A stretch of 52,054 nt of DNA from an uncultured Eubacteriales bacterium (GTDB taxonomy: Bacteria > Bacillota > Clostridia > Christensenellales > Aristaeellaceae): positions 1 through 52,054 of the forward strand of contig CACWXP010000026.1 in NCBI GenBank assembly GCA_902764875.1. Reading direction: 5' to 3'. Of the stretch, positions 34,535 to 52,054 are shown piece after piece. The notes under the pieces are model-generated. The model was not told where the DNA came from. It did no database searches and saw nothing but the letters and a program-made list of their open reading frames with translations. Each line of letters starts with the position of its first letter. Position 1 is the stretch's first letter. The position numbers and the translations under genes are program-made.

Positions 34535-34546
34535 GGGACTGCAACG

Positions 34547-36353: not shown

Positions 36354-36371
36354 CGGAAAAGGACAGGTTGA

Positions 36372-36461
36372 ATGTTTTTCCATCCATACAGACTGATCTT
36401 CACGAAGGAGGACAGCCATACCGTTTCGGTACGAATCGAGGAAATTGAAGACTATCATTGA
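36372..36461 (+). pseudogene. Remnant of a HigB-type toxin gene (C-terminus)
   Basis: A 29-codon open frame reads HPYRLIF near its start and VRIEEIEDYH at its end. This matches the last strand and the (D)YH ending of RelE-fold HigB toxins. The N-terminal two thirds are missing. It lies 15 bases upstream of the HigA-like remnant, in the usual toxin-antitoxin order. The piece is short, so the call rests on the motif and the neighbour. Confidence 0.5.
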
Positions 36462-36476
36462 AAGGAGAGGGCTGGC

Positions 36477-37854: not shown

Positions 37855-38580
37855 CTATTTTTTGAAATCGGCCACGGAAGCAATTCGTCCGTCCTGATGC
37901 AGCGCGGCGAAATGCACGGCATCTCCTGTTATTTTGCTTCGGACTGATATTTCTTCTCCTTCCCTGCACTGGGACAGAAAGCAGATCTCCATTTCTTTCG
38001 GAGAGAACTCCCGCCAGAAACTGCTGCCATATGCATCCTGGAACATAGCGATATAATGCAGATTGTTCATATGCCGGTTGACGTCCAGGTCGGATGTCCG
38101 GACCGTACGGATATACCGTTCTTCCGTTCCGTCCGCTGTTTTCTCAATGCCCAGGAAATCCGGAATATTATTCGGGATATCCTCGGTAAAATTCTCCGGA
38201 AAATCGATTGCGCTCAGGCGCAGGGGACGCTGCCTGGCCAGGCTGAATACGCAGCACTCCAGCTTTCCGCAGGCGGCTATTTTCCCGTGCTGCAGGATTT
38301 CAATATTCTCATTCACCAGCACCGGCTGCCGGTACGGTTCCATCCAGGCGCGCAGGGTCAGTTCTCCCCGATAATCCATTTTCTGTTTCAGAACCACATG
38401 ATATCGGGTATAGATCCATCCTGCTTCATATTTTTGCGGCAGGACATCGTTCCCTTTATTAACGGAATGCAGATGCCAGGTATGAATGTTCTGAAAATAA
38501 TACATTGCGCCGCGCAAGCCAATCAGGGCATCATCATCCGCGTAATGATACTGTGGCAGATCTTTCTGAATAAAAGGCAT
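37855..38580 (-). CDS. Acyl-ACP thioesterase
   Basis: It releases free fatty acids from acyl-carrier protein. The 241-residue protein has the double hot-dog layout of bacterial FatA/FatB-like thioesterases. The second half contains the active-site segment SDLDVNRHMNNLHYI (near residues 166-180), with the conserved Asp, Asn and His. WIYTRYHVVL and WMEPYRQPVL match the first hot-dog. AAGGAG precedes the ATG. A minus-strand TATAAT (38605-38610) upstream has a poor -35. Chain-length preference cannot be read. Its promoter region abuts the truncated tag gene. Confidence 0.87.
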   Translation of the reverse strand: MPFIQKDLPQYHYADDDALIGLRGAMYYFQNIHTWHLHSVNKGNDVLPQKYEAGWIYTRYHVVLKQKMDYRGELTLRAWMEPYRQPVLVNENIEILQHGKIAACGKLECCVFSLARQRPLRLSAIDFPENFTEDIPNNIPDFLGIEKTADGTEERYIRTVRTSDLDVNRHMNNLHYIAMFQDAYGSSFWREFSPKEMEICFLSQCREGEEISVRSKITGDAVHFAALHQDGRIASVADFKK

Positions 38581-38631
38581 CGCTGGTCTCCTTACTGCTG
38601 ATTCATTATAATGGACAGAAAACTGAAATGA

Positions 38632-38844
38632 TTAGGCTGCGATCCTGTCATACTCAAAATTGTCAAAGCACTGTCTGAAAACCTGCCGCTTTTTCAGCAT
38701 CAGATCCCAGCTGAGGCTGCATTGCAGATTTTCCAATGTCAGGTGTTCGAACATCTGCCGGTCATCATGCACCGGGACGCCCCATTCCGTATCATGATAG
38801 TGCCGTTCTCTGTCATTCACATAAGCCCAGCTGCAATGTCCCAT
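38632..38844 (-). pseudogene. Truncated 3-methyladenine DNA glycosylase I (tag)
   Basis: Seventy codons encode the N-terminal third of Tag: CSWAYVNDRERHYHDTEWG, then VPVHDDRQMFEHLTLE and LSWDLMLKKRQ. Intact Tag, which removes 3-methyladenine from DNA, is about 190 residues and ends with a zinc-binding region. This frame meets a stop right after YDRIAA, exactly where the family continues, and the next bases are the thioesterase promoter region. The 3' part was probably deleted. An 80-base gap separates it from the antitoxin gene upstream. Confidence 0.85.
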
Positions 38845-38921
38845 TTTCTTTTTCCCCCGTATTACAGGCTTTCATAGCTTTCATCGACCATGCGCCGGAT
38901 AAGTTTATCCGAGATTCTCGA

Positions 38922-39230
38922 TTATTCTTTTGATGTAGCGGCGGCCTGTGATGACCCTTTGGGCCTGAATTGCACATCCAGAACCATGCCCATGCCTTCA
39001 GCCAGCCTTTGAAGCAGCTTGATGCTTGGATTTCGTGTGCCGTTTTCCAGACGGCTGATTTCCGTCTGTGCAATGCCAGTTTTCTCTGCCAGCTGTTTCT
39101 GTGTCAGGTTCTGGGATGTACGTGCTTCAATCATCGCGCGAATTACATTCATATCCGGCTGGATTTCCTCATACGCTTTCGCGAATACAGGATCCCTCAT
39201 CTTTTCTTTCTTATAATCCTTCAGATTCAT
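38922..39230 (-). CDS. XRE-family antitoxin (HigA-like)
   Basis: The 102-residue protein has a helix-turn-helix domain at about residues 36-90 (LTQKQLAEKTGIAQTEISRLE), the XRE fold. It lies directly after a RelE-type toxin gene, so it is the antitoxin that should bind the toxin and repress the promoter. The start is ATG 39230, or GTG 39239, which would overlap the toxin stop as GTGA; spacing of AGGTGA favours the ATG. The N-terminal 35 residues (KKEKMRDPVFAKAYEEI) are typical of this antitoxin subgroup and probably contact the toxin. Confidence 0.88.
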   Translation of the reverse strand: MNLKDYKKEKMRDPVFAKAYEEIQPDMNVIRAMIEARTSQNLTQKQLAEKTGIAQTEISRLENGTRNPSIKLLQRLAEGMGMVLDVQFRPKGSSQAAATSKE

Positions 39231-39235
39231 TACAC

Positions 39236-39652
39236 TCACCTGCTTCCTTTCTTGCTCGTTACTGCAGCCTGTTGTCTTCTTAAGAAATCAGCCCTGTATT
39301 TCTTTGCCAGTTCGATCTGTGCTCTGGGTGTTTTCTGAGTCTTTTTGATGAAACCATGAGTAATGACGATTCGACCTTCGACGTAGAAGAAGAACAGAGC
39401 ACGAGAAATGTTGGATCCTTGAGTAGCTCTCAGTTCAAATATTCCATCCTCAAGTGGAGCGGAGTATGGTTCGCGCAGCGAATGCCCTTTCTCTTCCAGA
39501 ATCTCCATCAGGCCAACCATTTTCGCATTCATCTTGGGCTCAAGAGAATCAAGAAATTCCTGTGTTGGAGTTCTGCCATCTTCTGTATCGTAAAACTCTA
39601 CCTGAAATTGTATCTGCTCTACCCTTGCCTCCTGAAAGAGTTCAATTACCAT
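39236..39652 (-). CDS. RelE/HigB-type toxin (phage Gp49-like family)
   Basis: The protein is up to 138 residues, of the Gp49-like HigB family: FYDTEDGRTPTQEFLDSL near residue 20, then LREPYSAPLEDGIFELRA and RALFFFYVEGRIVITHGFIKKTQKTP split across the core. In the family these are ribosome-dependent mRNA interferases held inactive by the adjacent XRE protein. Start choice is uncertain. ATG 39652 falls at the predicted transcription start, implying a leaderless message. An AGGAGG inside the reading frame (39628-39633) has no standard start codon at proper distance. Confidence 0.87.
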   Translation of the reverse strand: MVIELFQEARVEQIQFQVEFYDTEDGRTPTQEFLDSLEPKMNAKMVGLMEILEEKGHSLREPYSAPLEDGIFELRATQGSNISRALFFFYVEGRIVITHGFIKKTQKTPRAQIELAKKYRADFLRRQQAAVTSKKGSR

Positions 39653-39656
39653 TTGT

Positions 39657-39685
39657 ATTATATGAGATATATCTCAATTTTGCAA
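39657..39685 (-). promoter_or_regulatory. Toxin-antitoxin promoter with embedded palindromic operator
   Basis: Minus-strand TTGCAA (39680-39685), a 17-bp spacer and a perfect TATAAT (39657-39662). The spacer contains a perfect 14-bp palindrome, TGAGATATATCTCA (39663-39676), directly next to the -10. This is an ideal site for autorepression by the XRE antitoxin. Confidence 0.8.
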
Positions 39686-39722
39686 GTGCTGTTTTTATTT
39701 CCTTGGAAAGTTATTTCAAAGA

Positions 39723-39940
39723 TTATGCCATGCGGATTCGATTGTATACATCAGTGATATCTTCTTTCGCACCTTCAAACACAGGCCATGCGTCAATCTG
39801 ATCATTCTGGATGCGGGAAATAATATGGATGTGAAAGTGGGGTACGGATTGTCCGGCGCTTTTCCCGCTTGCATTCAGCAAGTTCACACCATCATACCCG
39901 CACTTTTCCGTGAGATGCCGGGAAACCTTCCGAAAAAAAC
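39723..39940 (-). pseudogene. Truncated HIT-family gene (C-terminal part)
   Basis: About 70 codons encode the C-terminal half of a histidine-triad protein: YDGVNLLNASGKSAGQSV, then the triad PHFHIHII and DAWPVFEG. HIT proteins are nucleotide hydrolases or transferases of 110-140 residues. The N-terminal half is absent. The open frame runs upstream into the -35 of the CarD promoter at 39941, so a deletion or insertion junction lies near 39930-39945. Nothing suggests it is expressed. Confidence 0.8.
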
Positions 39941-39969
39941 TTGACAATGATGCAATATATGGTTATAAT
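39941..39969 (+). promoter_or_regulatory. Consensus promoter of the CarD module
   Basis: Perfect TTGACA (39941-39946), a 17-bp spacer and perfect TATAAT (39964-39969). It is the strongest promoter in the window. Transcription should begin near 39976, leaving a leader of about 120 bases before the CarD start. Confidence 0.9.
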
Positions 39970-40011
39970 AATTACTGTATAAGACATGGCACGATACGTG
40001 CGAGATTTCGC

Positions 40012-40047
40012 AGACACGATACAGCAATGTGTCGTGTCTTTTCTTTA
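40012..40047 (+). terminator. Terminator-like hairpin in the CarD leader (candidate attenuator)
   Basis: Arms at 40012-40023 and 40028-40039 form a 12-bp stem with one G-U pair, closed by a GCAA (GNRA) tetraloop and followed by TTTCTTTAT. It sits between the promoter and the first gene. The upstream leader repeats the motif CACGATAC (39990-39997 and 40015-40022) and forms a small GCACG/CGTGC hairpin at 39989-40001, so alternative folds are possible. Confidence 0.7.
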
Positions 40048-40094
40048 TTCTGCTGCATGATTCACCGCAGAACCGGGAAAGGAGGAGATCATCA

Positions 40095-40589
40095 TTGTTC
40101 CATGAGGGCGACTATGTCATGTATTCCGGTATGGGATTATGCACTGTTGAAAAAATCGGGACACCGGATTTCCAGCCAAAGGGATCACAGTATTATTTCT
40201 TACGGCAGGCAGATGATCGCAGCAGAATTTACGTGCCTGTAGATACAAGATTACCCATGCGTAAACCAATAACCGGGCCGGAAGCCGAAAGATTTCTGGA
40301 AGCACTTTCAGCAGAGGTCATCAATGTGCCTAAATCATATAATCACAAGACGATGCTTCCTATGATCAAGGAAATGGTCAGACCCCAGACAGCGGAAGCG
40401 ATGGGACGGACCATCAAAACGATCCGGGCTTTGCATCCTGATGGAAAATATCCCGGTGAAGAGAAGGCAATCCTGGATAAAACTGTCAGGAAGCTGAATT
40501 GTGAGTTGGCTTATGCCATGCATATTTCAGAAACAGAGGCGGACAGTAAACTTCAAAAAGCAACTGCTTCGCCAAAGAAATTGGACTAA
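40095..40589 (+). CDS. CarD/CdnL-type RNA polymerase-binding regulator
   Basis: CarD-type proteins bind the RNA polymerase beta subunit and stabilise open promoter complexes. The 164-residue protein has the N-terminal RNA polymerase-interacting SH3-like domain (FHEGDYVMYSGMGLCTVEKI, then YVPVD near residue 50) and a helical C-terminal domain. TTG at 40095 is the likely start, nine bases after GGAGG. Upstream in-frame starts lie inside the leader terminator. It is the first gene of a three-gene module with two small paralogous proteins, driven by a consensus promoter. Confidence 0.85.
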   Translation: MFHEGDYVMYSGMGLCTVEKIGTPDFQPKGSQYYFLRQADDRSRIYVPVDTRLPMRKPITGPEAERFLEALSAEVINVPKSYNHKTMLPMIKEMVRPQTAEAMGRTIKTIRALHPDGKYPGEEKAILDKTVRKLNCELAYAMHISETEADSKLQKATASPKKLD

Positions 40590-40608
40590 TACGAAGGAGG
40601 TATTACCC

Positions 40609-40860
40609 ATGAAACGAATCCAGTCATCCGCCATTTTTCAGACGCTGATCTTTTCCCAGAAACCGGAAAACGGCTATACCAGAGATGAAGCCTGCCGGAT
40701 GAACAGAGCCGAAGTTGATCATTATATCGAAAAGCTTGAAAGAACACGCACCAGATACAAGATCACAGATCGCCAGGAACAGACAGACGGATCAATCCTT
40801 CTGCACATTCGTAAACAGTATAACGATCGGATTGATGCAAAAGAGTACTTCGAATTGTAA
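40609..40860 (+). CDS. Small CarD-associated protein, copy 1
   Basis: This 83-residue soluble protein has no recognised domain. The N-terminus MKRIQSSAIFQTLIFSQK and C-terminus DGSILLHIRKQYND match the next gene. The pattern is a predicted helix (AEVDHYIEKLERTRTRYKI) followed by a beta hairpin. It is acidic/basic mixed with no Cys. AAGGAGG lies eight bases before ATG 40609; a longer upstream frame overlaps carD and is not needed. It lies 19 bases after the CarD-like gene. Function unknown. Confidence 0.8.
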   Translation: MKRIQSSAIFQTLIFSQKPENGYTRDEACRMNRAEVDHYIEKLERTRTRYKITDRQEQTDGSILLHIRKQYNDRIDAKEYFEL

Positions 40861-40876
40861 CAGGAGGATATGTACA

Positions 40877-41119
40877 ATGAAACGCATAAAGGCCGCCTGC
40901 ATTTATCAGACAATCCTTTTTTCTCAAAAAGAAGAGCATCTTGAACACGATTACGCTGTAAAACTGGTTCAGGATGAGGTAAATCGATATAAAGCAACTT
41001 TGGACAGGAACCGGACAAAATACAAAATCGTCAGCGAAGAGACGCAGGAAGATGGCTCTGTTATGATCAAAATCATCAAGCAGTATAACATAACTCCTGT
41101 CGGCGATTATCTGAACTGA
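40877..41119 (+). CDS. Small CarD-associated protein, copy 2
   Basis: This 80-residue paralogue of the preceding gene shares MKRI, QTxLFSQK, the (E)V-x-Y/H-x4-L-x-R-x-RT-x-YKI helix and DGS(V/I)-IKKQYN ending, at roughly 45 percent identity by eye. AGGAGG lies ten bases before ATG 40877 and the gap from copy 1 is only 16 bases. Conservation of the helix-hairpin pattern suggests both copies are functional, possibly a heterodimer. Function unknown; no DNA-binding motif is apparent. Confidence 0.8.
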   Translation: MKRIKAACIYQTILFSQKEEHLEHDYAVKLVQDEVNRYKATLDRNRTKYKIVSEETQEDGSVMIKIIKQYNITPVGDYLN

Positions 41120-41183
41120 TCATAGGCGTTGTCCATGCTCAGCTTTTCAAGCTTTTCATAAACCTCGGCATCCACATTGGGGA

Positions 41184-42443
41184 TCAAATATACCACACCG
41201 GGATTTGAAACAGATTATCTCTGAGTATCCCAGGAGCGGGACATGTACATATGATGGCTCCGGTTCCGCGCTTTTTTTCACTTACTTTGTCGAGAACAGG
41301 AAAAGCAGACGCATCATCAGCGCTGACTTTTGTCCCTTGCTTGATTTCGATTGGGTAGAGCACTCCATTTTCTTCAATAATCAGATCAATCTCGCTCTCG
41401 ACTTCGACGGTCTCTCCATTCTTTTTGACCTTTTTCTTGTCGCGGCCCCTGTAATAGGACACACAATAACGATAATCAATTCCTCTGTTGGAATAGGACT
41501 TTAGGATCTCTGAAATGACAAAGGTTTCGAAGAACGCGCCACTCATGGCTCCATTTGCCAATGTGTCCGGTGTAAGCCAGCGGGTAAGATATGCTGCAAG
41601 CCCGGTATCACGGAAATAAACCTTAGGACTCTTGATTGCTCGGTTCAGCACGCTTGGCGTATATGCCTCAAGCAGATAAACAATCCCGGAAGCTTCCAGA
41701 ATGGACATCCACGCCTTTACCGTCGTTTGATCCTTGCCGATCTCATCTGCAATATTGCTGTAGTTTACAATCTGTCCGGTCCGCGCGGCAACGGCGACCA
41801 TGAAGCGCCTGAAATCATTCAGATCCTGGACGGCTGTCAGTTTACGTACGTCTCTCTCAAGATAGGTTTTCACATAGCTGGAGAAAAACATACCCCATTC
41901 TACTTCTGGATCTTGCAGTTCGGGATAGCCGCCTCGATGAATTTTCTCCCAGATATTCGTTGGCATGGTGACGCTTTGACTGCGCTCTTTAATGTAATCC
42001 ATCGTGGGAACGAAAGGAAGAGTGAAGGAGTCGCGATCAATCTCACGCTGTGACAAGGGAGAGAGTTCAACGATACCGACTCTTCCTGCCAGCGATTCAG
42101 AGGCTTTCTCCATCAACTCCAGAGGCTGAGAACCGGACAGACAAAATTGGGCTTTGGCATCTGAAGCGTCACAAGCAATTTTGATATAACGAAACAGATC
42201 CGGTGCTCTCTGAACTTCATCATAGATGACAGGCGGTGGGTTGAGCATCATGAACATATTTGGATTGCTGTTTGCCTGTTCCTCTATGAACGGATCGTCA
42301 ATGAGTACATACTTTTTGTCGGGGAACAGCTCTTTTATCATTTTGGTCTTCCCGGTTTGCCGCGCTCCGGTAATCAGAATGCTTTTGAATGTTTTGTCAG
42401 GATGCAAGACAACATCTTCGATGGCCCTTTTGATGTAATCCAT
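41184..42443 (-). CDS. AAA-ATPase with DUF4143 domain
   Basis: The 419-residue protein has an N-terminal AAA_14 domain, with P-loop GARQTGKT (residues 26-33) and Walker B PVIYDEVQRAP near residue 72. LSGSQPLELM is the sensor region. A C-terminal DUF4143 domain contains EIDLIIEENG and YPIEIKQGTKVS, reminiscent of a PD-(D/E)XK nuclease core. The family is widespread, multicopy and of unknown function. GAGGGG precedes the ATG. The promoter lies between two near-identical palindromes. A short open frame in another register follows its stop (41117-41215), which I do not call. Confidence 0.88.
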   Translation of the reverse strand: MDYIKRAIEDVVLHPDKTFKSILITGARQTGKTKMIKELFPDKKYVLIDDPFIEEQANSNPNMFMMLNPPPVIYDEVQRAPDLFRYIKIACDASDAKAQFCLSGSQPLELMEKASESLAGRVGIVELSPLSQREIDRDSFTLPFVPTMDYIKERSQSVTMPTNIWEKIHRGGYPELQDPEVEWGMFFSSYVKTYLERDVRKLTAVQDLNDFRRFMVAVAARTGQIVNYSNIADEIGKDQTTVKAWMSILEASGIVYLLEAYTPSVLNRAIKSPKVYFRDTGLAAYLTRWLTPDTLANGAMSGAFFETFVISEILKSYSNRGIDYRYCVSYYRGRDKKKVKKNGETVEVESEIDLIIEENGVLYPIEIKQGTKVSADDASAFPVLDKVSEKKRGTGAIICTCPAPGILRDNLFQIPVWYI

Positions 42444-42462
42444 GTCAGCCCCTCGCTTTCGA

Positions 42463-42489
42463 CAAATCTGGGATCAGATCCCGGATTTG
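42463..42489. repeat. Palindrome copy A at the DUF4143 promoter
   Basis: CAAATC-t-GGGAT, a CAG centre, then ATCCC-g-GATTTG: 11 bp of dyad with one T/G mismatch per arm. It overlaps the expected transcription start of the minus-strand ATPase gene, so it can be a DNA operator or a 5' mRNA hairpin. Confidence 0.7.
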
Positions 42490-42494
42490 CCATC

Positions 42495-42523
42495 ATTATA
42501 TCATCACACTAATATAAACGCAA
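42495..42523 (-). promoter_or_regulatory. Promoter of the DUF4143 ATPase gene
   Basis: Minus-strand TTGCGT (42518-42523), a 17-bp spacer and a perfect TATAAT (42495-42500), between palindromes A and B. Confidence 0.7.
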
Positions 42524-42536
42524 GAGACAATATCGA

Positions 42537-42563
42537 CAAATCTGGGATTGAATCCCGGATTTG
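42537..42563. repeat. Palindrome copy B at the DUF4143 promoter
   Basis: CAAATC-t-GGGATT, a G centre, then AATCCC-g-GATTTG. It is almost identical to copy A (both lie in a CGACAAATCTGGGAT context), with centres about 74 bp apart, roughly seven helical turns. Confidence 0.7.
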
Positions 42564-42733
42564 CTGTGGATCATGTGGCTCCTATTACTCTCGGTGAGGT
42601 ACTGTAAGCTGTCAAAGAAGGACGAGAGAGCATCAGGCAAAACGCGCCTGATTATGAAGAAACCCATCCTTTGCCTTGTGGCTCTGATGTCATCCAGCTC
42701 GACCTGCTGAAAATGACTGCCATCCACCGAACG

Positions 42734-43000
42734 CTAATATGCGCCAAGAGCAAGCTGCGCAATAGCAGCAGCTTCCTGAGCATGAATGATGTCCGTCAAA
42801 CGCCCGTACTGAGAAATCAGCGCGTCATCGCACAGACGCATCAGCCCCTCGAAGTAATAGTCGTTGGCGGCGACGCTGGTGAAGCCTGTGATAATGGTCC
42901 CCACGCCGCCTCGGGCCAGCTCGTCATATATAGCATAGGCCCTCTTCCGGCATTTTTCTTCTTTATTGACAGGCTGGGTTTCTGCGCCATCTAACGATTC
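42734..43000 (-). pseudogene. Old-yellow-enzyme (NADH:flavin oxidoreductase) fragment
   Basis: The minus strand encodes YDELARGGVGTIITGFTS, then NDYYFEGLMRLCDDALI and LTDIIHAQ...IAQLALGAY. This is an internal stretch from the N-terminal part of OYE-family flavin reductases. Intact members exceed 340 residues. A stop follows GAY, where the family continues, and the upstream sequence is unrelated, so both ends are lost. The next 220 bases (42509-42730) contain an open minus-strand frame of unknown origin. Confidence 0.7.
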
Positions 43001-43043
43001 TGCTAATGACTGCCACATTTGTTTGCTTTGAACTATTTTCTGA

Positions 43044-43487
43044 CTACCGCCTACACCAGAAGGCGTAGTCAATGTGCATATCTTCCATGCGGGACATCTG
43101 ATTGGTTGTGGATGTATCGCCTGTCACATAGACAGAGCAGCCGTTGGAAAAGGTGAGCACATAACCCACGCATTCATTCACATCGTGGAAGCTGTTGAAG
43201 CCTGCCTCAACCGCTTCCACGCGCACATAAGGCAGATTGAATACCTGATGCACGCCGTCGATGAGCGCTTCTTTGTGCGTGACAATTTAGCAATTCTCAT
43301 TTCGATTGGTTACTTTGTCAATGGCACAATGATCGAAGTGCCCGTGGGTCACCAGGATCAGATCGGCAGGCAGCCCGTACTGATCTCCGGCATAGGGATG
43401 ATTGTATATTATGCCTGGCTGTGATAAAACATGGCCAGGTAAAAACTTTTTGGTCAGGTGAATAAAACCCGATGTTCTACTCGTCAT
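43044..43487 (-). pseudogene. Broken metallo-beta-lactamase-fold hydrolase
   Basis: The frame encodes NHPYAGDQYGL and LILVTHGHFDHC, the HxHxDH zinc motif. It meets an in-frame TAA at about 43287-43289 and continues in the same frame with KEALIDGVHQVFNL, SFHDVNECVGYVL and VYVTGDTSTTNQMSRMED, ending abruptly after DYAFW. The single internal stop and the missing C-terminal histidine region indicate a dead gene. The intact family members are zinc hydrolases of about 220 residues. Confidence 0.75.
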
Positions 43488-43512
43488 TCATAGTGAAGGG
43501 AGGTGATCGGCG

Positions 43513-43990
43513 ATGGAACGTGCTGCGGTACCCAGCATGATCCGCGAACAGAGACTGAATCAATGGATCGAAGACTACTCTGATTCGATTTTGCGGACCT
43601 GTTTTCTCTATCTGTCCGATCAGACCCAGGCTGAGGATGCGACACAGGACACGTGGATCAAAGCCTGGAAACACGCGCATAGCAATCAATACCTGCAAGG
43701 ATTACCGGCGTACAGCCTGGTTCAGGCATGTGGATCGGAGCAAAGCGCTGGATGAACTGCCGCCGCAGCTGATTGCCGTGGAACCGGAGGATCGTACCCT
43801 CACGCTGATGGTGATGGATCTGCCGGACAGATACAAACAGGTCATTCTTCTCCATTTCTTTCAGGGGCTTACGATGCAGGAAACAGCCGATGCGCTGGGG
43901 GCATCACAGTCAACAGTGCATCGCAGGCTGAAAAAAGCGGAAGAGCTCCTGAAAGGATCGCTGACGGGAGGTGTGACTTATGAAGGATAA
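43513..43990 (+). pseudogene. ECF sigma factor, copy 1, disrupted by internal deletion and frameshift
   Basis: GGGAGGTGA precedes ATG 43513. The frame reads region 2 (SILRTCFLYLSDQTQAEDA, DTWIKAWKH), then slips. In another frame the protein resumes at RIAINTCKDYRR...WFRHVDR and carries a good region 4 (LPDRYKQVILLHF, ETADALGASQSTVHRRLKK) to the stop at 43990. Compared with copies 2 and 3, about 15 residues (the FRGxSSEKTW segment) are missing at the junction near 43675. The product is likely non-functional unless rescued by frameshifting. The stop overlaps its anti-sigma gene by 11 bases. Confidence 0.8.
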
Positions 43991-44933
43991 CAGATTGGAA
44001 CAGCGAATTCAGCATTCGCTGAACGCGGAGCTTTCCGGGCTGAACACGACTTCCTGGCAGCGTAATCAATTCTTTGAAAGCGCGACAGGAGGAAATAAAG
44101 TGAAAAGAAAGCTTACATACAGCCTTGTGCTGGCGATCGTGTTGCTGCTGATTGCGGCGACAGCGCTGGCAGCGGTCGCTGGGATCATCTTTGCAAAACG
44201 AGTGCCCGCCACAGAAATTGCGGATCAGGCGTTGCTCAGAACCTATGGGATTACCGCCCAGATGCAATCCCTGTTCATACGGGAAACCGCAGAGGGAGCA
44301 GGCGGAACAACTGTTGTAACATATGAAGGAAGAGAGCATCTTGCTTATGTGCTGGGCAAGTATACAGTGATCGTGGATGGCCAAACCGTGAAAAACATAT
44401 GCTGGAGCCATGATGGGGAGGACACAAGTGGCGGGCTGGAAGCCTCCGCCTGGGGGAAGGATCAGCTGGATGAAATCCTGCGGATCGACCCGGAAACCGG
44501 GAAACAGGCCCAGCTGTATACGTTCAATCCTTACATCGAACGGATTAACCGAGAGCATGGTTTTGACTATGAAGCGTATTGGGATGAAGATGAGGATGAA
44601 TATGTAGTTGTTTTGGAGGGGGAAGATGTTCAGCAAGCGAAGGAGCGGCAAGCTTTTTCTGCGCATGAGTTCGTCCAAATCGCAAAGAAAGCCGTTGGTG
44701 TAAGATATCACTTAACTTCCCAGCAGATTTCTTTGATGTCAATAGACGTGGATGAGAATTCTGCCTATGTCCTGCTGGATGGAACGCTCTGTTATCGCTG
44801 TTGGATCTTCGTGGGAGAACTGTCCTCTGAGGAAACGGAACAGGATGGATGTTACACTGTTTATCTGAACCTGGAAACTGGTGTTGTGGAGGATATCCAG
44901 TTCCTGTCTGAGCACGGCGGTGGAAATGGCTGA
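43980..44933 (+). CDS. Membrane anti-sigma-like protein, copy 1
   Basis: The 317-residue protein has a cytoplasmic N-terminus of about 40 residues (IQHSLNAELSGLNTTSW), one membrane helix (about 44-66, LTYSLVLAIVLLLIAATALA) and an extracytoplasmic domain of about 245 residues. The Asp/Glu-rich part and the YTVYLNLETGVVEDIQF ending look PepSY-like. The N-terminus and helix match the partners of sigma copies 2 and 3, so I infer it binds its sigma factor through the LSGL segment. The ectodomain differs from the other two. GGGAGG precedes the ATG. Confidence 0.75.
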   Translation: MKDNRLEQRIQHSLNAELSGLNTTSWQRNQFFESATGGNKVKRKLTYSLVLAIVLLLIAATALAAVAGIIFAKRVPATEIADQALLRTYGITAQMQSLFIRETAEGAGGTTVVTYEGREHLAYVLGKYTVIVDGQTVKNICWSHDGEDTSGGLEASAWGKDQLDEILRIDPETGKQAQLYTFNPYIERINREHGFDYEAYWDEDEDEYVVVLEGEDVQQAKERQAFSAHEFVQIAKKAVGVRYHLTSQQISLMSIDVDENSAYVLLDGTLCYRCWIFVGELSSEETEQDGCYTVYLNLETGVVEDIQFLSEHGGGNG

Positions 44934-44957
44934 TTATTCTGAAAGACTTGTTGCATT

Positions 44958-44986
44958 TTTCCGGCTGTGTTATACATAGCCGGAAA
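44958..44986 (+). terminator. Hairpin after anti-sigma copy 1
   Basis: TTTCCGGCT (44958-44966) and AGCCGGAAA (44978-44986) form a 9-bp stem. A hairpin with the same CCGGCT/AGCCGG core follows anti-sigma copy 2. The T-tract is weak here. Confidence 0.55.
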
Positions 44987-45074
44987 TTTGTATGGAAAGA
45001 ATTATGCCTATTCGATATTTTGCCGACAGGTTACGTCTATATATGTGAAAACCCTTTGAGAGGAGGTGTGTCCC

Positions 45075-45593
45075 ATGGAAGCTGTCAAGGATCCGGACAG
45101 CCTGCGGGATCAAACCATTGAGAAACTGATTTTACAATATCAGACACCGCTGCTTCGCCTGTGCTATGTGCAGTTGCAGGATCAGGCACTGGCAGAAGAC
45201 GCTGTGCAGGAAACATTTCTGAAGGCATACAAAGGATTTGCCTCGTTTCGCGGTGACAGCAGTGAAAAGACCTGGCTGACCCGAATCGCAGTAAATACCT
45301 GCCGGGATTTTCAGCGCGGCGGCTGGTTCAAACATACAGACCGGAGAATAACGCCGGAAATGCTGCCTGTGGGAGCCATACAGCCGGATACTGAAGACCT
45401 GGATTTGTCGATGGCTGTGATGAAACTGCCCCGGAAAATGCGGGAAGCGATCATTCTTTATTACTATCAGGACATGAGCACGGAGGAGATTGCTGAAACA
45501 CTGGGTATTGCCCAGTCATCAGTATCCAACCGATTGCGACGAGGCCGGGAAAAGCTTCGGAAAATGCTGGAAGGGAGGGATCAGGATGCGTGA
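45075..45593 (+). CDS. ECF RNA polymerase sigma factor, copy 2
   Basis: This 172-residue group 4 sigma factor directs RNA polymerase to envelope-stress-type promoters. Region 2 is at about residues 20-85 (LCYVQLQDQALAEDAVQETFLKAY, ending in TWLTRIAVNTCRDFQR). Region 4 is at about 115-168 (LPRKMREAIILYYYQDM, EIAETLGIAQSSVSNRL). GAGGAGG lies eight bases before ATG 45075. An upstream GTG is inside the ribosome binding site. Its stop overlaps the anti-sigma start by eight bases, coupling the pair. Confidence 0.93.
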   Translation: MEAVKDPDSLRDQTIEKLILQYQTPLLRLCYVQLQDQALAEDAVQETFLKAYKGFASFRGDSSEKTWLTRIAVNTCRDFQRGGWFKHTDRRITPEMLPVGAIQPDTEDLDLSMAVMKLPRKMREAIILYYYQDMSTEEIAETLGIAQSSVSNRLRRGREKLRKMLEGRDQDA

Positions 45594-48357
45594 GGATCTG
45601 AACAGAGAAAAAATGCATAAAGCAATTGATTCAACGCTGTCCGGACTGAACGGTGATCCCTGGCTGTTTCAGCGCGTCTCCGCCCGTGCTGCGGAAGGAG
45701 AAACAAAAGTGAAGAAAAAACTGTCTGCCGGATTGGTTCTGGCAATTGTCATGATACTGATTGCAGCGGTTGCTTTGGCTGTGACGCTGCTGACCCATCA
45801 GGAGATCGTTGAACAGGTTGCTGTTCCGCTGGCGGTTGATAACGACGCCTGTGTGGGAGTCAACAAGACATACAATGCTGAGGAACTGGCGGAACTGGTA
45901 CGCAGCCTGAATGAAAACGGGATTACACTGGAAGAAAACAACCGGATTATGCAGGCTCTGCAAAACGGCCAGGGATATTATGAAGAAGAAACAATTATGG
46001 AGATCTGCCGTCAGGCCTTTGGCGGAAACTATTACACCTGGACACTGGAACAGCAGGACTGGTATGAGGATCTGATGGTTCAAATCGGCTTCCATGAAAC
46101 GCATCTGACCCGGTTGCCGGGAGAAGGAAACATGAAATATGAGGATGCGGAAACCTTCGCGTTCCGGAAAATCCGGGAAGCATATGGACAGGATTTGCCG
46201 CTGGAAGATCGGAGCATATGGCAACTGAGCCGCCAGTTCTATGTGGAAAACCCTGACGATCCCACCAGTGCCGGATGGAGTTTCTCACTGGAACCAATGG
46301 ATATAGATCATGGGCAGTACTATATTGGTTTTGGCGACAATGATCCTGAAGAAACAGTCTTTGTCAGTGCCAATATCCATGATTGGTCCCAATCCTATAC
46401 CGGCGATGAACTTCTGGGCCATTTTAATACGGTCTATTCATGGAACTATGGGCAGTGGCCGCAGGAAGCCTGGCAGAGACTGCATGAAATGCTGCAGGGC
46501 GCGGAAATTGATCCGACCAGCCGGGAGGCACAGGCGCTGAAAGCATTCCGAATGACAGAGTATCCTGTACCCGGCGAAAAGGATATTTCAAGGGAGACCG
46601 CGATTCAAAAAGCGAAAGAAGCCCTGCAGGATTCACGCGCAGCGCTGGACGGAGTGGTACTGACTGAATATGAAGGACAAAGAATTTGGATGGTTTCATT
46701 TGTAATCAAGCCTTCAAATGAAGGAATTGCCGATGATACAGCGGGCTTCTTTGCAGTGTCTGTGGACAGTGCAACGGGCACTATACTGGATTCAAGGAAA
46801 CAAGACCTGGATGATTCAATTGCTTTTGCATACGTACCTGTGAATGCCTATGTAAAAGCATGGGAAGGAATCCTTCGCCGGAGCGAGATTATACAATCGG
46901 CTGTTGATGCAATCCAGAAGAAGTATCCTGACTTGGATTTGATGAATGAAGAAAAATACGAAATAAGAGCTGATGGTTATAAGAGATGGAATGTGACATT
47001 CCAGGCGAAAGATATTCGCTGGGGCAATGTGACCGCAAGTGTATCCATGGATGGAATCGTCGGCGAGATCAACGCAGATACTGAGCCGCTGAACGGGGAT
47101 AATCTTTGGAAACGGTACAGGCAGGCACAAGGATATTTCGGTCAGTGGGATCAGTCGGTTTGGGGGCAACTGGAAAAGGACATGTCCGGGCTGGAGCCAG
47201 TGCAGATTGATGGAAAATTGCTTAAAGCAACCCATTATCCGGAAGAATCCTCTGTGAAGATCCAACATGAGCAGGCAAAAGACCTCGGCATACAAGCAAC
47301 CGGAAAGCGCACGGCTGAAGTGAATACCTGTGTGTTGGTGGATGCGCAACCGCATCCGGTCTGGATTATGCGAATCCTGACTGATGAAGCGGATGAGCCG
47401 GTTGTAGGGATTGATGCTGAAACCGGAGTCGTCGTTTTTACGGAACAGTTCAAAACGGATTACACTCCCCAATATGTATTGTATTCCATGCCGGAAACTT
47501 GGCGAAAGATGGAACTGGAAATGCTTGGGGCTCCCTATATGGCGAAGGTGGCCATCACACATAAGTTCGGAGATATGTGGCTTGATGAACCGGAACTGGA
47601 CGTGGATAACACTGAAAACTGGGAATTACAGCAAGATGGGCTTGTGATTCGCTATATCGGACGCTGGAAAGGCATGAAGAGCTACGAAGTGGAGCTGGAT
47701 CAGAACGGGTTTGTGCTCCGCTGTGAGGAAAGCAATACCACCTCTATGGAAGAGAAATCGAATAATGCCGGAGAACTAAATGAAGAAGCGCTTGTTCTGC
47801 CGCCAACGCCGATTCCGCTTCCGGATGGAAAACCCTGGTTCTGGGGAATGGATTTCGCGCCGCAGGAATTCTGGGATCAGTTGGAAAAACTATTTTACAC
47901 GCATGTAATGACGATGGACGATTATCCGGCAAGGGAAAAAGACTGGCTTGAAGCTTTCGGAGAGTCTGAGTTCTGGCCGCAGGGATACCAGATCGTTCGT
48001 TATCTTTATTATGCGACGGAAGAGCAGCTAAAGCAGCCCGGCCTTCAGTATCCGGTATTCCCAAATCCAGACAAGAAAACGCAGAAAGAAATCTGTGAAA
48101 TTGCTCTCAATGCTTTCCACGAGATCGCAGACGCGGAAATGGGTAAAGAATGGGTTGCAAATATAAAAGTCGGCAGCACTTTATGTAGTGATAAGACAAA
48201 TCCCGATACGGAGGAACAATATGGAATGCATATATGGTATGTCAATTTCAACGTCTGGGAAGACGAATTCAATATTTGGAATCCAAAGGGAGAAGCAATG
48301 TTGGATGAAGACGGCAATGTACTCGTAGTAAGGCTGGGGTTATCTGGAAACGGATGA
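45586..48357 (+). CDS. Membrane anti-sigma-like protein, copy 2, giant ectodomain
   Basis: The 923-residue protein has a short cytoplasmic N-terminus (AIDSTLSGLNGDPWLFQRV), a membrane helix at about 45-67 and an ectodomain of about 850 residues. The first 120 ectodomain residues (EIVEQVAVPLAV, LNENGITLEENNRIMQAL, GYYEEETIMEICRQAFG) are closely matched in copy 3. Beyond that lie repeated PepSY-like units (SRETAIQKAKEAL, VDSATGTILDS, DAETGVVVFTEQF) and Trp-rich modules (WPQEAWQRLHEML, WDQSVWGQLEKDM). It probably senses an extracellular signal or processing event. A terminator with a CCGGCTAT stem follows. Confidence 0.8.
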   Translation: MREDLNREKMHKAIDSTLSGLNGDPWLFQRVSARAAEGETKVKKKLSAGLVLAIVMILIAAVALAVTLLTHQEIVEQVAVPLAVDNDACVGVNKTYNAEELAELVRSLNENGITLEENNRIMQALQNGQGYYEEETIMEICRQAFGGNYYTWTLEQQDWYEDLMVQIGFHETHLTRLPGEGNMKYEDAETFAFRKIREAYGQDLPLEDRSIWQLSRQFYVENPDDPTSAGWSFSLEPMDIDHGQYYIGFGDNDPEETVFVSANIHDWSQSYTGDELLGHFNTVYSWNYGQWPQEAWQRLHEMLQGAEIDPTSREAQALKAFRMTEYPVPGEKDISRETAIQKAKEALQDSRAALDGVVLTEYEGQRIWMVSFVIKPSNEGIADDTAGFFAVSVDSATGTILDSRKQDLDDSIAFAYVPVNAYVKAWEGILRRSEIIQSAVDAIQKKYPDLDLMNEEKYEIRADGYKRWNVTFQAKDIRWGNVTASVSMDGIVGEINADTEPLNGDNLWKRYRQAQGYFGQWDQSVWGQLEKDMSGLEPVQIDGKLLKATHYPEESSVKIQHEQAKDLGIQATGKRTAEVNTCVLVDAQPHPVWIMRILTDEADEPVVGIDAETGVVVFTEQFKTDYTPQYVLYSMPETWRKMELEMLGAPYMAKVAITHKFGDMWLDEPELDVDNTENWELQQDGLVIRYIGRWKGMKSYEVELDQNGFVLRCEESNTTSMEEKSNNAGELNEEALVLPPTPIPLPDGKPWFWGMDFAPQEFWDQLEKLFYTHVMTMDDYPAREKDWLEAFGESEFWPQGYQIVRYLYYATEEQLKQPGLQYPVFPNPDKKTQKEICEIALNAFHEIADAEMGKEWVANIKVGSTLCSDKTNPDTEEQYGMHIWYVNFNVWEDEFNIWNPKGEAMLDEDGNVLVVRLGLSGNG

Positions 48358-48421
48358 ATGACATAGCCAATTACAAACCCTGAGTTTTCCAACGTATAAG
48401 TGTTGAATGATTCAACTTTTT

Positions 48422-48451
48422 TCCGGCTATGATATCCATAGCCGGATTTTT
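48422..48451 (+). terminator. Intrinsic terminator after anti-sigma copy 2
   Basis: TCCGGCTAT (48422-48430) and ATAGCCGGA (48438-48446) form a 9-bp stem followed by five T. It separates copy 2 from copy 3. Confidence 0.8.
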
Positions 48452-48512
48452 CCAAGAAATGAAATATTTTCTTTCGCATATCAGTCAGTATTAGTGAAGG
48501 GGGTGAAAGCAC

Positions 48513-49031
48513 ATGAGCAATGTCAAGGGCCCTGACGAAGCTCAAAACCCGAATTTCGAAGAACTGGTGGCGCAGTATCAGGGATCTGTATTGCGGATGT
48601 GTTTCCTCTACTTGTGCGACAAGACACTGGCTGAGGACGCTGTACAGGAAACGTTTGTGAAGGTATACAGGGGATTGAATAGTTTTCATGGCCAGAGCAG
48701 TATCAAGACCTGGATCATGAAAATTGCCATTCATACCTGCTACGATATGAATCATTCCGGATGGTTCCGGCATTTTGATCGTCGGATCACACCGGAGATG
48801 CTGCCTGAAGCGGCAGTCCCGTTTGAGGAAAGAGATGAGGAACTGATCACAGCCGTCATGCGGCTCCCGATTAAACTGCGCGAAGTGATTCTACTGTTTT
48901 ACTATCAGGGATTCAGCATACAGGAAATCATGGATTCGCTGGGCGTGTCCCAGTCAACCGTCACAGGGCGGCTGAAACGGGGAAGAGACAAACTTCGCGG
49001 ATTACTGGAAAGGAGGGATTCCGATGCGTGA
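48513..49031 (+). CDS. ECF RNA polymerase sigma factor, copy 3
   Basis: This 172-residue group 4 sigma factor is clearly homologous to copy 2: region 2 has MCFLYLCDKTLAEDAVQET and SIKTWIMKIAIHTCYDM; the shared GWFRHFDRRITPEMLPEA linker follows; region 4 has LPIKLREVILLFYYQGF and EIMDSLGVSQSTVTGRLKR. GGGGGTG precedes the ATG. Its stop overlaps the anti-sigma start by eight bases, the same arrangement as copy 2, so the pair was duplicated as a unit. Confidence 0.93.
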   Translation: MSNVKGPDEAQNPNFEELVAQYQGSVLRMCFLYLCDKTLAEDAVQETFVKVYRGLNSFHGQSSIKTWIMKIAIHTCYDMNHSGWFRHFDRRITPEMLPEAAVPFEERDEELITAVMRLPIKLREVILLFYYQGFSIQEIMDSLGVSQSTVTGRLKRGRDKLRGLLERRDSDA

Positions 49032-50277
49032 AGCTGAAGAAAGAGAGATCTTCCAGAATGCTGTGGATCGGCGTCTTTCCGGTCTGCAGGAGAATCCTTT
49101 CCTAGCTCAGCGGATCATGAACGCTGAGAAGGGAGAGATAAAACCGATGAAAAAGAAACTGACACTGAGCATGGTTTTGGTCATTGTGTTATTGCTTATC
49201 GCGGTAACGGCGCTGGCCGTTGCACTGCTGTCGCCTAAGGAAATCGTGGAGCAGGTTGCTGTGCCGGTTGCACAGAGCAATGAGCAAGAGAATTATACCT
49301 ATGAAGAACTGGCGGAGCTGATCCGGGCGTTGAATGAAAACGGGATTACTCTGGACGAAGGTTCTAAGATTATGCGGGCTTTTCAGGCCGGGCACGGCTA
49401 CTGGGAAAAAGATGCTATTCATGAAATATGCTTATCCGCGTTTGGTGCGAATAAGAGCACATGGAGCATTGAACAACGGTACTGGTATGGAGAAATGATG
49501 GTCGCGATCGGAGCGTGGGATAGCAATATATACATGCTGCCGGAGGGAGATGACCTGACTGAGCCGGAAGCCAGAAGACTTGCCGTGGACGCACTTAAGA
49601 AAGTGTATAACGTGGATCTTCCAACAGAAACGAATGAAGAATGGCTGATTGGAGCGGGATTTGGTTCCAATTATTATGATGAAGGCGATGATAGCTATTG
49701 GATTGTGGAATGGCATTTAGGCTTCAGCCGCCCGGAGAAGCCGGATGCATTGGTTTACGACGTTAGTTTTGATCGTCACGGAGAGAATATCCAGACTGAA
49801 TATCATGAAGAGCAGGAGATGGACGAGCGGGCGCTCAAACTGTATACGGAATTGATGACCATCGCCTCAAAAGAAAAGGAGGCCATGGAAAAGTATGGTG
49901 AAATCATGTATTTTTGGCCGGATGAAGTAAAGGTTGAAATCTACGGTGCAACAGGTCTGCCCTATGCCATCCCGGAACAGGCGCAAACCGACCAGGCAAT
50001 GAAGGACGCGAAAAGATTTATCACCGAAAAATATGGGCAGGATGCGCTAGCAAATCTGGGCGATTATCAGGTTGGATATCTCTTCCAGAAGCTTGATGAT
50101 GAAGAAGATATTGAAACAAAAATGACGCAGCTGATGTGGGATATTATGTTCACAACAGATCCGGAATTCCTGTCAGACGGCTATAGGGTACAATTCCAGA
50201 GAGTCATCGACCATGAAACTGGCGAAGAGAACATTGTTGATGTGATTGTTGAACATGCCAATCTGGGGTCTGGCTGA
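49024..50277 (+). CDS. Membrane anti-sigma-like protein, copy 3
   Basis: The 417-residue protein has a cytoplasmic N-terminus (AVDRRLSGLQENPFLAQRI), a membrane helix at about 45-67 (LTLSMVLVIVLLLIAVTALAV) and an ectodomain of about 350 residues. Residues 70-190 (SPKEIVEQVAVPVAQ, LNENGITLDEGSKIMRAF, YWEKDAIHEICLSAFG) are strongly similar to copy 2. The remainder lacks the long repeat array. I infer an anti-sigma role from the coupled, overlapping arrangement. No recognised ZAS zinc motif is present. Confidence 0.78.
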   Translation: MREAEEREIFQNAVDRRLSGLQENPFLAQRIMNAEKGEIKPMKKKLTLSMVLVIVLLLIAVTALAVALLSPKEIVEQVAVPVAQSNEQENYTYEELAELIRALNENGITLDEGSKIMRAFQAGHGYWEKDAIHEICLSAFGANKSTWSIEQRYWYGEMMVAIGAWDSNIYMLPEGDDLTEPEARRLAVDALKKVYNVDLPTETNEEWLIGAGFGSNYYDEGDDSYWIVEWHLGFSRPEKPDALVYDVSFDRHGENIQTEYHEEQEMDERALKLYTELMTIASKEKEAMEKYGEIMYFWPDEVKVEIYGATGLPYAIPEQAQTDQAMKDAKRFITEKYGQDALANLGDYQVGYLFQKLDDEEDIETKMTQLMWDIMFTTDPEFLSDGYRVQFQRVIDHETGEENIVDVIVEHANLGSG

Positions 50278-50306
50278 GTTGGAATGATCTATAAACAAAG
50301 CTGGGC

Positions 50307-50360
50307 TTGACACACTTAGTCGACACGTGTATACTAACGAATGTAGACGCGCGTCGACTA
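50307..50360 (+). promoter_or_regulatory. blaI-blaR1 promoter with two operator-like dyads
   Basis: TTGACA (50307-50312), a 17-bp spacer and TATACT (50330-50335). A dyad TAGT-CG-ACACGTGT-AT-ACTA (50317-50336) covers the spacer and -10. A second, related dyad around ACGCGCGT (50341-50360) lies 24 bp downstream. Their outer half-sites share CG(T/C)GTCGACTA. This matches the layout of BlaI/MecI autorepression. Confidence 0.8.
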
Positions 50361-50381
50361 TTTTCGTTGGAGGGATGATTG

Positions 50382-50750
50382 ATGTCTGTACAGGTAACAG
50401 AAGCGGAATGGAAAATCATGGAGTGCTTATGGGATCACGCACCGCAAACCATGGGTGAAATCACAGCGACACTTGAACCGGAAACCGGCTGGACACGCCA
50501 GACGGTGATTACCCTGCTGAAGCGGATGACTGAAAAAGGCGCTGTCAGCATGGACGATTCCGAACGGGCCAAGAAATATGTTCCGCTGATTACCCGGGAG
50601 GAAGCGTCCACGGAGGAAACACATAAATTTCTTAATCATGTTTTCAAGGGAAAGGCGTCCCTGCTTGTCAATCATCTGGTAGACAGCGGAGATCTTTCCG
50701 AGGATGATCTTCAGGAAATCCTGAATGTCATGCGCGAAGAAAAAAAGTAA
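50382..50750 (+). CDS. blaI: BlaI/MecI-family transcriptional repressor
   Basis: The 122-residue protein has a winged-helix N-terminus (VTEAEWKIMECLWDHAPQT, GWTRQTVITLLKRMTEKGAV) and a helical dimerisation C-terminus. In the family, the repressor is cleaved when the sensor protease BlaR1 detects beta-lactam or another signal, which opens the operon. ATG 50382 is chosen, with GGAGGG at normal spacing. blaR1 follows after 58 bases. No beta-lactamase or PBP2a gene is within the window, so the regulated target is unknown. Confidence 0.92.
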   Translation: MSVQVTEAEWKIMECLWDHAPQTMGEITATLEPETGWTRQTVITLLKRMTEKGAVSMDDSERAKKYVPLITREEASTEETHKFLNHVFKGKASLLVNHLVDSGDLSEDDLQEILNVMREEKK

Positions 50751-50808
50751 ACCTCGTAAATAATTGGTGTCTCCTGAATCGTCTGTATAGATGGGAGGTC
50801 TTTTTGCG

Positions 50809-52054
50809 ATGCGTTCTGCAATGATTTTCAATTTTCTGATTGAAGCAAACATTATGGCTTCAATCGCGATTCTGCTGATGATTCCCCTGAGGATACTGCT
50901 CCGGAAACAGATGGGGAATACCGCGATTTGCTTTGGATGGCTGCTGATTGCACTTCGGCTGCTGATTCCCCTGACGTTGCCAAATCCATTGATTCATGAA
51001 ATCCGTCCGGCTTATCTGGACGATACCGCAATCCGGCCGATCGCTGGTCAGGTCAAGGTCCGGTTGGTGGATGCCATCGGTGATCTGGGAAGGGTTTTCT
51101 GGCAGGCCGGTAACCGGCAGGCTTACTCTGATATGCAGAAAGTGGCTGCCGGGGTGGATTATAACGGCTATCCTGCTATTCTTGCCTGGATCTGGCTGGC
51201 AGGATGTGCATTAGTTTTGCTGTGGTTCATCTATAAAAACGTGAAATTCAGAAAAACCCTGAGTAATAATCGGATCGGAGAAATATCCGGCGAACTGAAG
51301 GATCTCTATTTGCAGCTATGCAGGGAACGGAAAGTAAAACCTGTACCTGTATATTTTACTGATCCGGTGCCCGGAGCCTGCCTTGTGGGTGTATTCAGGC
51401 CTTATATTGTGCTTCCCCTCATTACTGCTCCGCAGGATGTAAAGAATGTTCTGACCCATGAAGTCTGCCATCTGAAAAACAAGGATCATCTCTGGGGAGT
51501 GTTGCGGCTTTTCTGCTGTGCCATCCATTGGTTCAACCCGCTGGTTTGGATCGCAGCTTCCATGAGCAGAACGGACAGCGAACTTCGCTGTGATGACCGG
51601 GTGACTGAGCCGATGAATGAATCGGAGCGGAAAGAATATGCCAATGTACTGGTGCTTGCGGCGGCAAGAAAAAGTATGCCCGGGCTTGGCGTTATGGCCA
51701 CAGGGATGACCATGACGGGAAAGCGACTGAAGAACCGCGTGCTTACGGTGCTGGCAGACAGGCAGACGAAACGAGGGTTAACGATTTCTTTTGCTGTTCT
51801 TGCTTCTCTTTGCCTCATCGCCGCTTTTTGCACCAGTGAGTGGGGGCAGAGCTTACGACAAACTGTTTCATTTGCAGAGCCTGAAGCTGTTCATCTGGTG
51901 CCTGAGCATCAGGAACGTCAGATGCCGGAAGATCTCCAGGAATGGGAAAAAGAGGTTTGGACACTGGCCGGATACGATTATGAAGAGATGGCACCATACA
52001 GGAGTACAGCGGCATTGCAGCAGTGGGAAGATGCCGGTACATTGACGCGGGTTT
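50809..52054 (+). CDS. blaR1: BlaR1-type M56 family metalloprotease sensor (partial, runs off window)
   Basis: The frame opens at ATG 50809 (GGGAGG upstream) and stays open to the window edge, at least 415 codons. The N-terminal half contains several membrane segments (ANIMASIAILLMIPLRILL, AILAWIWLAGCALVLLWF). The zinc-protease motif H217-E-V-C-H221 follows, then the conserved NPLVW and ELRCDDRVTE segments of peptidase M56. A fourth membrane helix lies near residue 330 (ISFAVLASLCLIAAFC), followed by an extracytoplasmic region. Whether a penicillin-binding sensor domain follows cannot be seen. Confidence 0.9.
   Translation, partial: MRSAMIFNFLIEANIMASIAILLMIPLRILLRKQMGNTAICFGWLLIALRLLIPLTLPNPLIHEIRPAYLDDTAIRPIAGQVKVRLVDAIGDLGRVFWQAGNRQAYSDMQKVAAGVDYNGYPAILAWIWLAGCALVLLWFIYKNVKFRKTLSNNRIGEISGELKDLYLQLCRERKVKPVPVYFTDPVPGACLVGVFRPYIVLPLITAPQDVKNVLTHEVCHLKNKDHLWGVLRLFCCAIHWFNPLVWIAASMSRTDSELRCDDRVTEPMNESERKEYANVLVLAAARKSMPGLGVMATGMTMTGKRLKNRVLTVLADRQTKRGLTISFAVLASLCLIAAFCTSEWGQSLRQTVSFAEPEAVHLVPEHQERQMPEDLQEWEKEVWTLAGYDYEEMAPYRSTAALQQWEDAGTLTRV

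Follow-up and report, generated by a model that had tools for sequence, protein, structure and literature searches.

How can one family of membrane proteins keep the same internal part and carry external parts of entirely different size? The question is raised by a 52,054-nt stretch of DNA (the window) from an uncultured Eubacteriales bacterium of the Aristaeellaceae (GCA_902764875.1, CACWXP010000026.1), which is one entire contig (C26) of a draft genome of 3.27 Mb in 67 contigs. Between positions 43513 and 50277, on the plus strand, it encodes three pairs of a sigma factor and a membrane protein, followed by BlaI-like and BlaR1-like genes. Sequence comparison with related loci suggests an answer: the membrane helix together with the ectodomain is a cassette that was exchanged between sigma modules during evolution. 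Thus, the same output module is found with different inputs, and the same sensor with different outputs.

A preliminary description, made from the letters of the window, had proposed three tandem pairs of an extracytoplasmic function (ECF) sigma factor and an anti-sigma factor. The gene order and strand are as described, except that sigma 1 is in two fragments, one with region 2 (43513..43755, plus strand) and one in another frame with region 4 (43637..43990, plus strand). Sigma 2 (172 aa, 45075..45593, plus strand; Pfam Sigma70_r2, 2.6e-15; r4_2, 2.6e-16) and sigma 3 (172 aa, 48513..49031, plus strand; 1.3e-13 and 1.4e-12) are intact, short proteins with regions 2 and 4 only, both above the Pfam cut-off, and were classified as ECF-type on this basis; sigma 1 does not qualify as a single ORF. 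The ECF superfamily model TIGR02937 scores above cut-off for sigmas 2 and 3 and for the sigma 1 of a related locus, L052. Sigma 3 has a near-identical second copy on contig C27 of the same genome.

The membrane partners are M1 (317 aa, 43980..44933), M2 (923 aa, 45586..48357) and M3 (417 aa, 49024..50277), all on the plus strand, and their genes overlap those of the sigmas by 11, 8 and 8 nt, in agreement with the translational overlap claimed earlier. The ectodomains, put at about 245, 850 and 350 residues, measure 250, 855 and 348 residues when counted from the end of the hydrophobic helix. Alignment also confirmed a common N-terminal segment with the motif LSGL and a similar membrane helix in all three proteins; they further share a lysine patch, and the helix ends in AxA (ALA in M1). 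The likeness of copies 2 and 3 was found to extend beyond the 120 ectodomain residues first noticed: M2 residues 2-226 and M3 residues 1-223 are 45% identical, about 155 ectodomain residues among them. The cytoplasmic segment is about 45 aa long and is predicted, at low confidence, to form two short helices in the M1 and M2 models. Scans of M1-M3 gave neither a Pfam family match above cut-off nor a credible one in NCBIfam. By eye, the zinc motif Hx3Cx2C, defined as the ZAS signature of class I anti-sigma factors in the part of PMC7406223 available, is absent from six aligned N-termini (M1-M3 and three paralogues).

We examined 45 loci (the window, L006, L007, L038-L059 and L090-L109) picked for holding such partners or lying near them, five of which are repeats (L090 of L052, L091 of L040, L092 of L039, L093 of L038 and L095 of L055). 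Among the relatives' loci, 22 come from metagenome bins of Clostridia, from the ruminant gut where a site is given. Removal of redundancy, defined by identical C-terminal 150 residues, reduced 79 hits to 65 partners. According to the preliminary description, a reading as anti-sigma factors would suffer if homologues occurred mostly without a sigma gene; all 65 adjoin one on the same strand, overlapping it in 56 cases (by 8 or 11 nt in 45 of these, with gene starts picked automatically), and free secreted ectodomains exist in addition. The best-conserved positions after the start are the two alanines of AxA (95% and 97%) and a lysine (92%). With E up to 1e-3 allowed, a profile of the N-terminus, whose 74 positions include the membrane helix, so that weak matches may reflect the helix only, matched 40 of 45 genomes in the genus, the own one among them, and 101 of 120 genomes of the family, in 46 of 50 genera and up to 19 times per genome. 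At the stricter threshold of 1e-5 it matched 2 of 81 genomes of the phylum, namely the own genome and one with a weak, partial match. The family therefore looks lineage-restricted and expanded, as far as these profile searches can tell.

Within this family, the sigma factors and the cytoplasmic segments co-vary closely. Pairwise identities of the two are correlated with r 0.885 for 59 of the 65 pairs, after window pair 1 (broken sigma), two sigmas shorter than 150 aa and three ectodomains shorter than 190 aa were dropped. The ectodomains follow the sigmas far less tightly. Among 62 comparisons of sigmas at least 80% identical, many of which share members and are not independent events, the ectodomains are unrelated in 27 and closely related in another 27. 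Conversely, sigmas are less than 60% identical in 12 of 48 comparisons of closely related ectodomains. For example, the pairs L039_7610 and L052_6101 share 96% identity in the sigmas and 94% in the N-termini, with unrelated ectodomains, while L006_10622 and L109_6804 have ectodomains 86% identical and sigmas 31% identical; ectodomains 93-95% identical also occur on sigmas less than 50% identical. The ectodomain types behind these examples were formed by single-linkage clustering, which makes type E0 heterogeneous. The earlier picture of a family that diversifies its sensing part and keeps its signalling part is thus supported more strongly than first claimed, and is widened in one respect: whole ectodomains were exchanged, beyond local duplication.

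Window M1 is itself a composite. It follows L039 7054-7803 until the helix ends, and L039 12609-13415 is matched by the stretch that begins with the helix and reaches one base beyond the stop. The cassette so defined (44122..44934, plus strand) has 90.6% DNA identity to the latter stretch, the alignment ending 1 nt beyond the stop codon, and is carried by another sigma module in L039 and L040. In protein terms, the ectodomains of window M1 and L039_12464 are 93% identical over 247 residues, compared with 47% for the sigma fragment and 39% for the N-terminus. For the analysis of breakpoints, window M1 was assigned to the S1 module by its N-terminus, and ectodomain swaps were required to have at least 75% DNA identity over at least 250 nt, a filter that left out L099_1117/L046_7170 and L047_6196/L048_10001. 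In the 32 same-module comparisons that passed, again with many shared members, the common DNA covers no more than the first 126-208 nt of the partner gene; the helix occupies about 138-207. In two swaps (the M1 type of the window and L052 against L039 and L040, and L006_10622 against L109_6804) the shared DNA starts at the helix or up to about 14 nt before it and ends within 1 nt of the stop codon.

Other differences are of smaller or larger extent. Between M3 and its copy on C27, residues ~122-350 are far more diverged than the flanks, which are more recent, and show high synonymous difference, perhaps a smaller mosaic of the same sort. The number of pairs also varies at one locus: L039 1-3597 (98.6%) and 13425-15675 (91.6%) match C27, and these stretches flank four pairs in L039 and one in C27. 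A separate observation concerns L006 2756-6353 and L039 1-3597, which are 98.6% identical, compared with about 88-92% for the other long stretches shared by the two loci, as if one side of the pair array had recently been transferred.

Each module is preceded by putative promoter elements of its own. Module 1 has TGAATAA as a -35-like and CTCGTCATT as a -10-like element (43459..43488, plus strand; aligned by eye with other S1-type upstream regions), module 2 has TCGATA N16 CGTCTA (45012..45039, plus strand; elements conserved in relatives), and module 3 has TGAAATA N16 AGTCAGTA (48460..48490, plus strand; from a pattern search of the own genome). The -35-like elements, aligned by eye, thus differ by module, and that of module 3 goes with a -10 of AGTC. 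Of 61 non-redundant regions upstream of sigma genes, 47 contain CGTC, which we take to be an ECF-like -10 element, between -60 and -15; shuffled sequences gave 5.5 on average and 11 at most, and 60 of 418 other called genes have it. A search of the own genome with the strict pattern of module 1 gave three sites, one of them at sigma 1 (control 0), and with that of module 3 two exact sites, both at module-3 sigma genes (control 0). These patterns fit modules that activate themselves from separate promoters. A secreted-looking gene directly after the pair array (L006 8243-8701, L039 13473-14030, L040 9363-9905) has a CGTC-type element of its own and is a candidate target.

The ectodomain of M2 is PepSY-like in part. 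Its model contains about six units of a helix plus strands, the last at low confidence, and the low-confidence model of M1 contains two. The best solved fold relatives of M2 are the C-terminal domain of YpeB and, for the unit at residues ~520-622, CD1622 and YpmB; this unit has a PepSY-type fold (helix plus strands). We take YpmB and CD1622 to be PepSY-type folds; to our knowledge, none of the three proteins has been described as the sensor of an anti-sigma factor. The other M2 units and M1 are modelled with helix and strands in a similar order, and have few or weak fold matches. The search for PepSY repeats proposed at the outset was well aimed: beside these fold matches, PF03413 scores 20.1 bits for unit 2 and 14.1 bits for unit 4 of M2, both below the Pfam cut-off of 24, and has no match in the other M2 units, M3 or the parts of M1.

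The features that the sequences themselves provide, that is, the pairing, the co-variation of sigma and cytoplasmic segment, the promoter-like elements, AxA and the exchange of cassettes, can be combined into one mechanism. We consider it probable that each unit consists of an autoregulated ECF sigma factor and a single-pass membrane anti-sigma factor of an unnamed family, with a PepSY-like sensor, release by proteolysis and an exchangeable cassette. The cytoplasmic segment of about 45 residues, which has no zinc motif, would hold the sigma factor, and the PepSY-like ectodomain would bind a ligand outside the cell (as a guess, a protein or peptide sensed in the PepSY manner). Binding would expose a site where the membrane helix ends, recognizable by the almost invariant AxA. 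Because AxA lies at the helix end, type I signal peptidase could make the first cut there; a site-2 (M50) protease, of which the own genome encodes two, and then cytosolic proteases would free the sigma factor, which would transcribe its own operon from the module-specific promoter.

Several observations weigh against this mechanism or limit it. Similarity of sigma and ectodomain is still correlated (0.43, a value reached in 0 of 2000 permutations), and the exchange is therefore partial. For L039_10001 and L041_9567, the shared DNA runs from 151 nt before the partner gene to about 70 nt past the stop, so that neither border fits. CGTC is missing from 14 of the 61 upstream regions, including that of window sigma 3; the strict pattern of module 2 has one site in the own genome (at sigma 2) and its reversed control two; and the strict patterns match almost only the sigma genes themselves, which therefore reveals no wider regulon. 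The M2 model is only moderate (pLDDT 69.7, pTM 0.50), its Foldseek matches have low TM-scores and include an unrelated Mediator chain at E 7e-4, while the M1 model is poor (63.6) with weak fold matches (E 0.017). AxA, finally, lies within an alanine-rich helix, is missing from the tested stretch in 4 of 65 sequences, and could be a ClpXP site.

The last point leads to an alternative that we regard as quite possible, if short of probable, namely that AxA is conserved for site-2 cleavage or ClpXP recognition and that site 1 is cut by another protease or by self-cleavage. RsgI anti-sigma factors offer a precedent: according to the accessible part of PMC12203970, XAA motifs in their helices are recognized by ClpXP and a periplasmic domain cleaves itself. 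Yet AxA closes the helix on its outer side, the position that it has in signal peptides, and Pfam and NCBIfam scans named no RsgI-like domain or other RsgI model in the window partners, the self-cleaving domain not having been searched with a profile of its own.

Sigma 1 raises a second doubt. Compared with intact relatives (L052, L039, L046 and L040), it is a net 50 nt shorter in region 2 (454 versus 504 nt), and the frame changes; the Pfam matches to regions 2 and 4 fall in different frames. It is possible, though doubtful, that module 1 is functional and that the break is an assembly or sequencing error, as might occur in a draft of 67 contigs; M1 and the module-1 promoter are intact, and a full-length sigma ORF is present in 12 of 14 non-redundant loci with module 1 (window counted). 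A net loss of 50 nt is, however, untypical of base-call errors, and the sigma 1 of an independent relative (L098 13713-14250, minus strand) is broken by other lesions, by eye a short frameshifting duplication and a loss within region 4, with its membrane partner still open. The sigma 1 of the window is probably a dead or mis-assembled regulator and, because this sigma is broken, M1 is probably an orphan in this genome.

The partners might instead be ordinary exported proteins with long leaders, co-transcribed with the sigmas and regulated by them, which we consider improbable. The helix does resemble an uncleaved leader with AxA, and free secreted versions of both the M1-type and the M3-type ectodomain exist (L006 3954-4799 and its near-copy L039 1199-2044; L050 8346-9542; L054 1363-2604), with leaders that look ordinary by eye. 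A plain leader, though, would not need to co-vary with the sigma far more tightly than the ectodomain does, as the cytoplasmic segment of these proteins does. Since free copies with leaders exist, the sensor ectodomains may also act, or compete, outside the switch. At L050 (188-9542), the free M3-type ectodomain lies near ORFs that by eye resemble a serine recombinase and a relaxase; a sensor cassette may travel on a mobile element.

For M2, the preliminary description had proposed the gain of a repeat array, and local duplication could have produced the repeated helix-plus-strands units of the model and their weak internal similarity, strongest between units 2 and 4 (E 8.6e-5, 22% identity) and units 3 and 5 (5e-4), followed by units 5 and 6 (1.3e-3 over 16 columns) and units 2 and 3 (1.9e-3). 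Match probabilities are about 60% or less, and the remaining 7 of 11 comparisons are insignificant. A recent acquisition is very unlikely, given that identity reaches only about 22% even in the best unit pairs and that the entire long ectodomain is kept in L039, L040 and L052 (87-93% identical) and, diverged to 50%, in L058. On this comparison, the long ectodomain is the conserved form of module 2, with old units, and the claimed gain is not upheld; L099, with the same sigma module, has a quite different ectodomain. As for the mosaics, that they are chimeras of metagenome assembly, a concern since the relatives' loci come from bins, has next to no probability, because the window and L052 (6101-7051) share the same composite M1, L039 and L040 the same order of four pairs, and G002, a 2-contig assembly, carries the S1 module with yet another ectodomain (L096).

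The proposed anti-sigma units combine parts of known kinds, the free exchange of ectodomains between modules being the new element. The SigI/RsgI systems of Clostridium thermocellum likewise have several pairs per genome and anti-sigma factors composed of an N-terminal sigma-binding part, a helix and a divergent C-terminal sensor, as far as described in the portion of PMC12203970 at hand. In contrast, window sigmas 2 and 3 and the sigma 1 of L052 match the ECF model TIGR02937, the sensors are PepSY-like, and one sensor is exchanged between modules at 86-95% protein identity. SigV/RsiV and SigP/RsiP of Bacillus also pair an ECF sigma with a membrane anti-sigma factor, and RsiV and RsiP are cut first by signal peptidase, close to the helix (site 1), and next by RasP (PMC8844934, accessible text). 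The use of the window AxA at the helix end would be comparable only by inference, and neither DUF4179, which holds the signal-peptidase site in RsiV, nor DUF3298 matched M1-M3 in Pfam at E up to 0.1. The cytoplasmic segment, with less than 50 residues and no zinc motif, resembles that of class II anti-sigma factors such as CnrY (PMC7406223), in which two helices wrap around the sigma factor, and at least one M2 ectodomain unit has the fold of YpeB, YpmB and CD1622. Our literature searches found no free exchange of anti-sigma ectodomains at high identity; the available part of PMC7406223 stresses the opposite for class I ASDI groups, in each of which the fused domains are strikingly conserved, unlike the near-identical modules with unrelated ectodomains found here.

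The natural chimeras, in which signalling halves more than 90% identical carry unrelated sensors, reveal a tolerated junction, so that the coupling of sensor to output could be tested directly with parts already swapped by evolution. They would also offer apparently orthogonal sets of sigma and promoter with interchangeable inputs, and a gut lineage could in this way rewire its signalling without inventing new regulators.

Unrelated proteins of these loci end in a Gly-Asn-Gly (GNG) tail. Greedy calling of ORFs in the examined loci alone, which includes some spurious ones, gave 572 genes, of which 28 have GNG and 40 have GxG at the end, compared with 3.5 expected for GxG and with 2 GxG and no GNG at a control position. 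Third codon positions of the tail vary, and selection is therefore likely at the protein level. The carriers, which include M1 (tail GGGNG), M2 (LSGNG), M3-type, BlaR1-like and SH3-like proteins, are mutually unlike, and those with a readable N-terminus look exported or membrane-bound by eye; window M3 ends in GSG (ANLGSG). Tails are found at window positions 44922-44933 and 48346-48357 and at L006 930-941, 3160-3171, 4788-4799 and 6277-6288. In the own genome, 88 sites match GGNAAYGGNTRR, against 49 for a control pattern (TGG included). Reading of 30 sites on C1-C6 and of the sites with a real stop on C7-C45, with C40, C55 and C66 left out, gave three plausible GNG genes outside the clusters (L121, L125 and L128). 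Several open frames of 65-397 aa with such a tail (e.g., L013, L027, L115, L117 and L120) were rejected as genes on inspection by eye.

A bolder and rather unlikely scheme would join these tails to a family-wide exchange of sensors. Fixed, orthogonal and self-activating ECF modules would draw on a pool of PepSY-like cassettes that recombine at the helix and rewire the links between signal and promoter, and the Gly-Asn-Gly tail, which unrelated secreted proteins have as well, would be a docking tag for a common protease or partner, allowing any cassette to work on any module.

Elsewhere in the window, G+C content falls from ~0.54-0.61 to 0.45-0.51 over positions 34000-52054, a region that holds ATPase/DUF4143-type genes and the sigma cluster. 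Next to the cluster, on the minus strand at 42734-43072, part of an NADH:flavin oxidoreductase gene is recognizable (Pfam 2.9e-5, slightly under the score cut-off), perhaps a decayed gene. Farther from the cluster, a SAM riboswitch (33199-33315, minus strand) precedes the ORF at 31938-33167, which presumably encodes S-adenosylmethionine synthetase.

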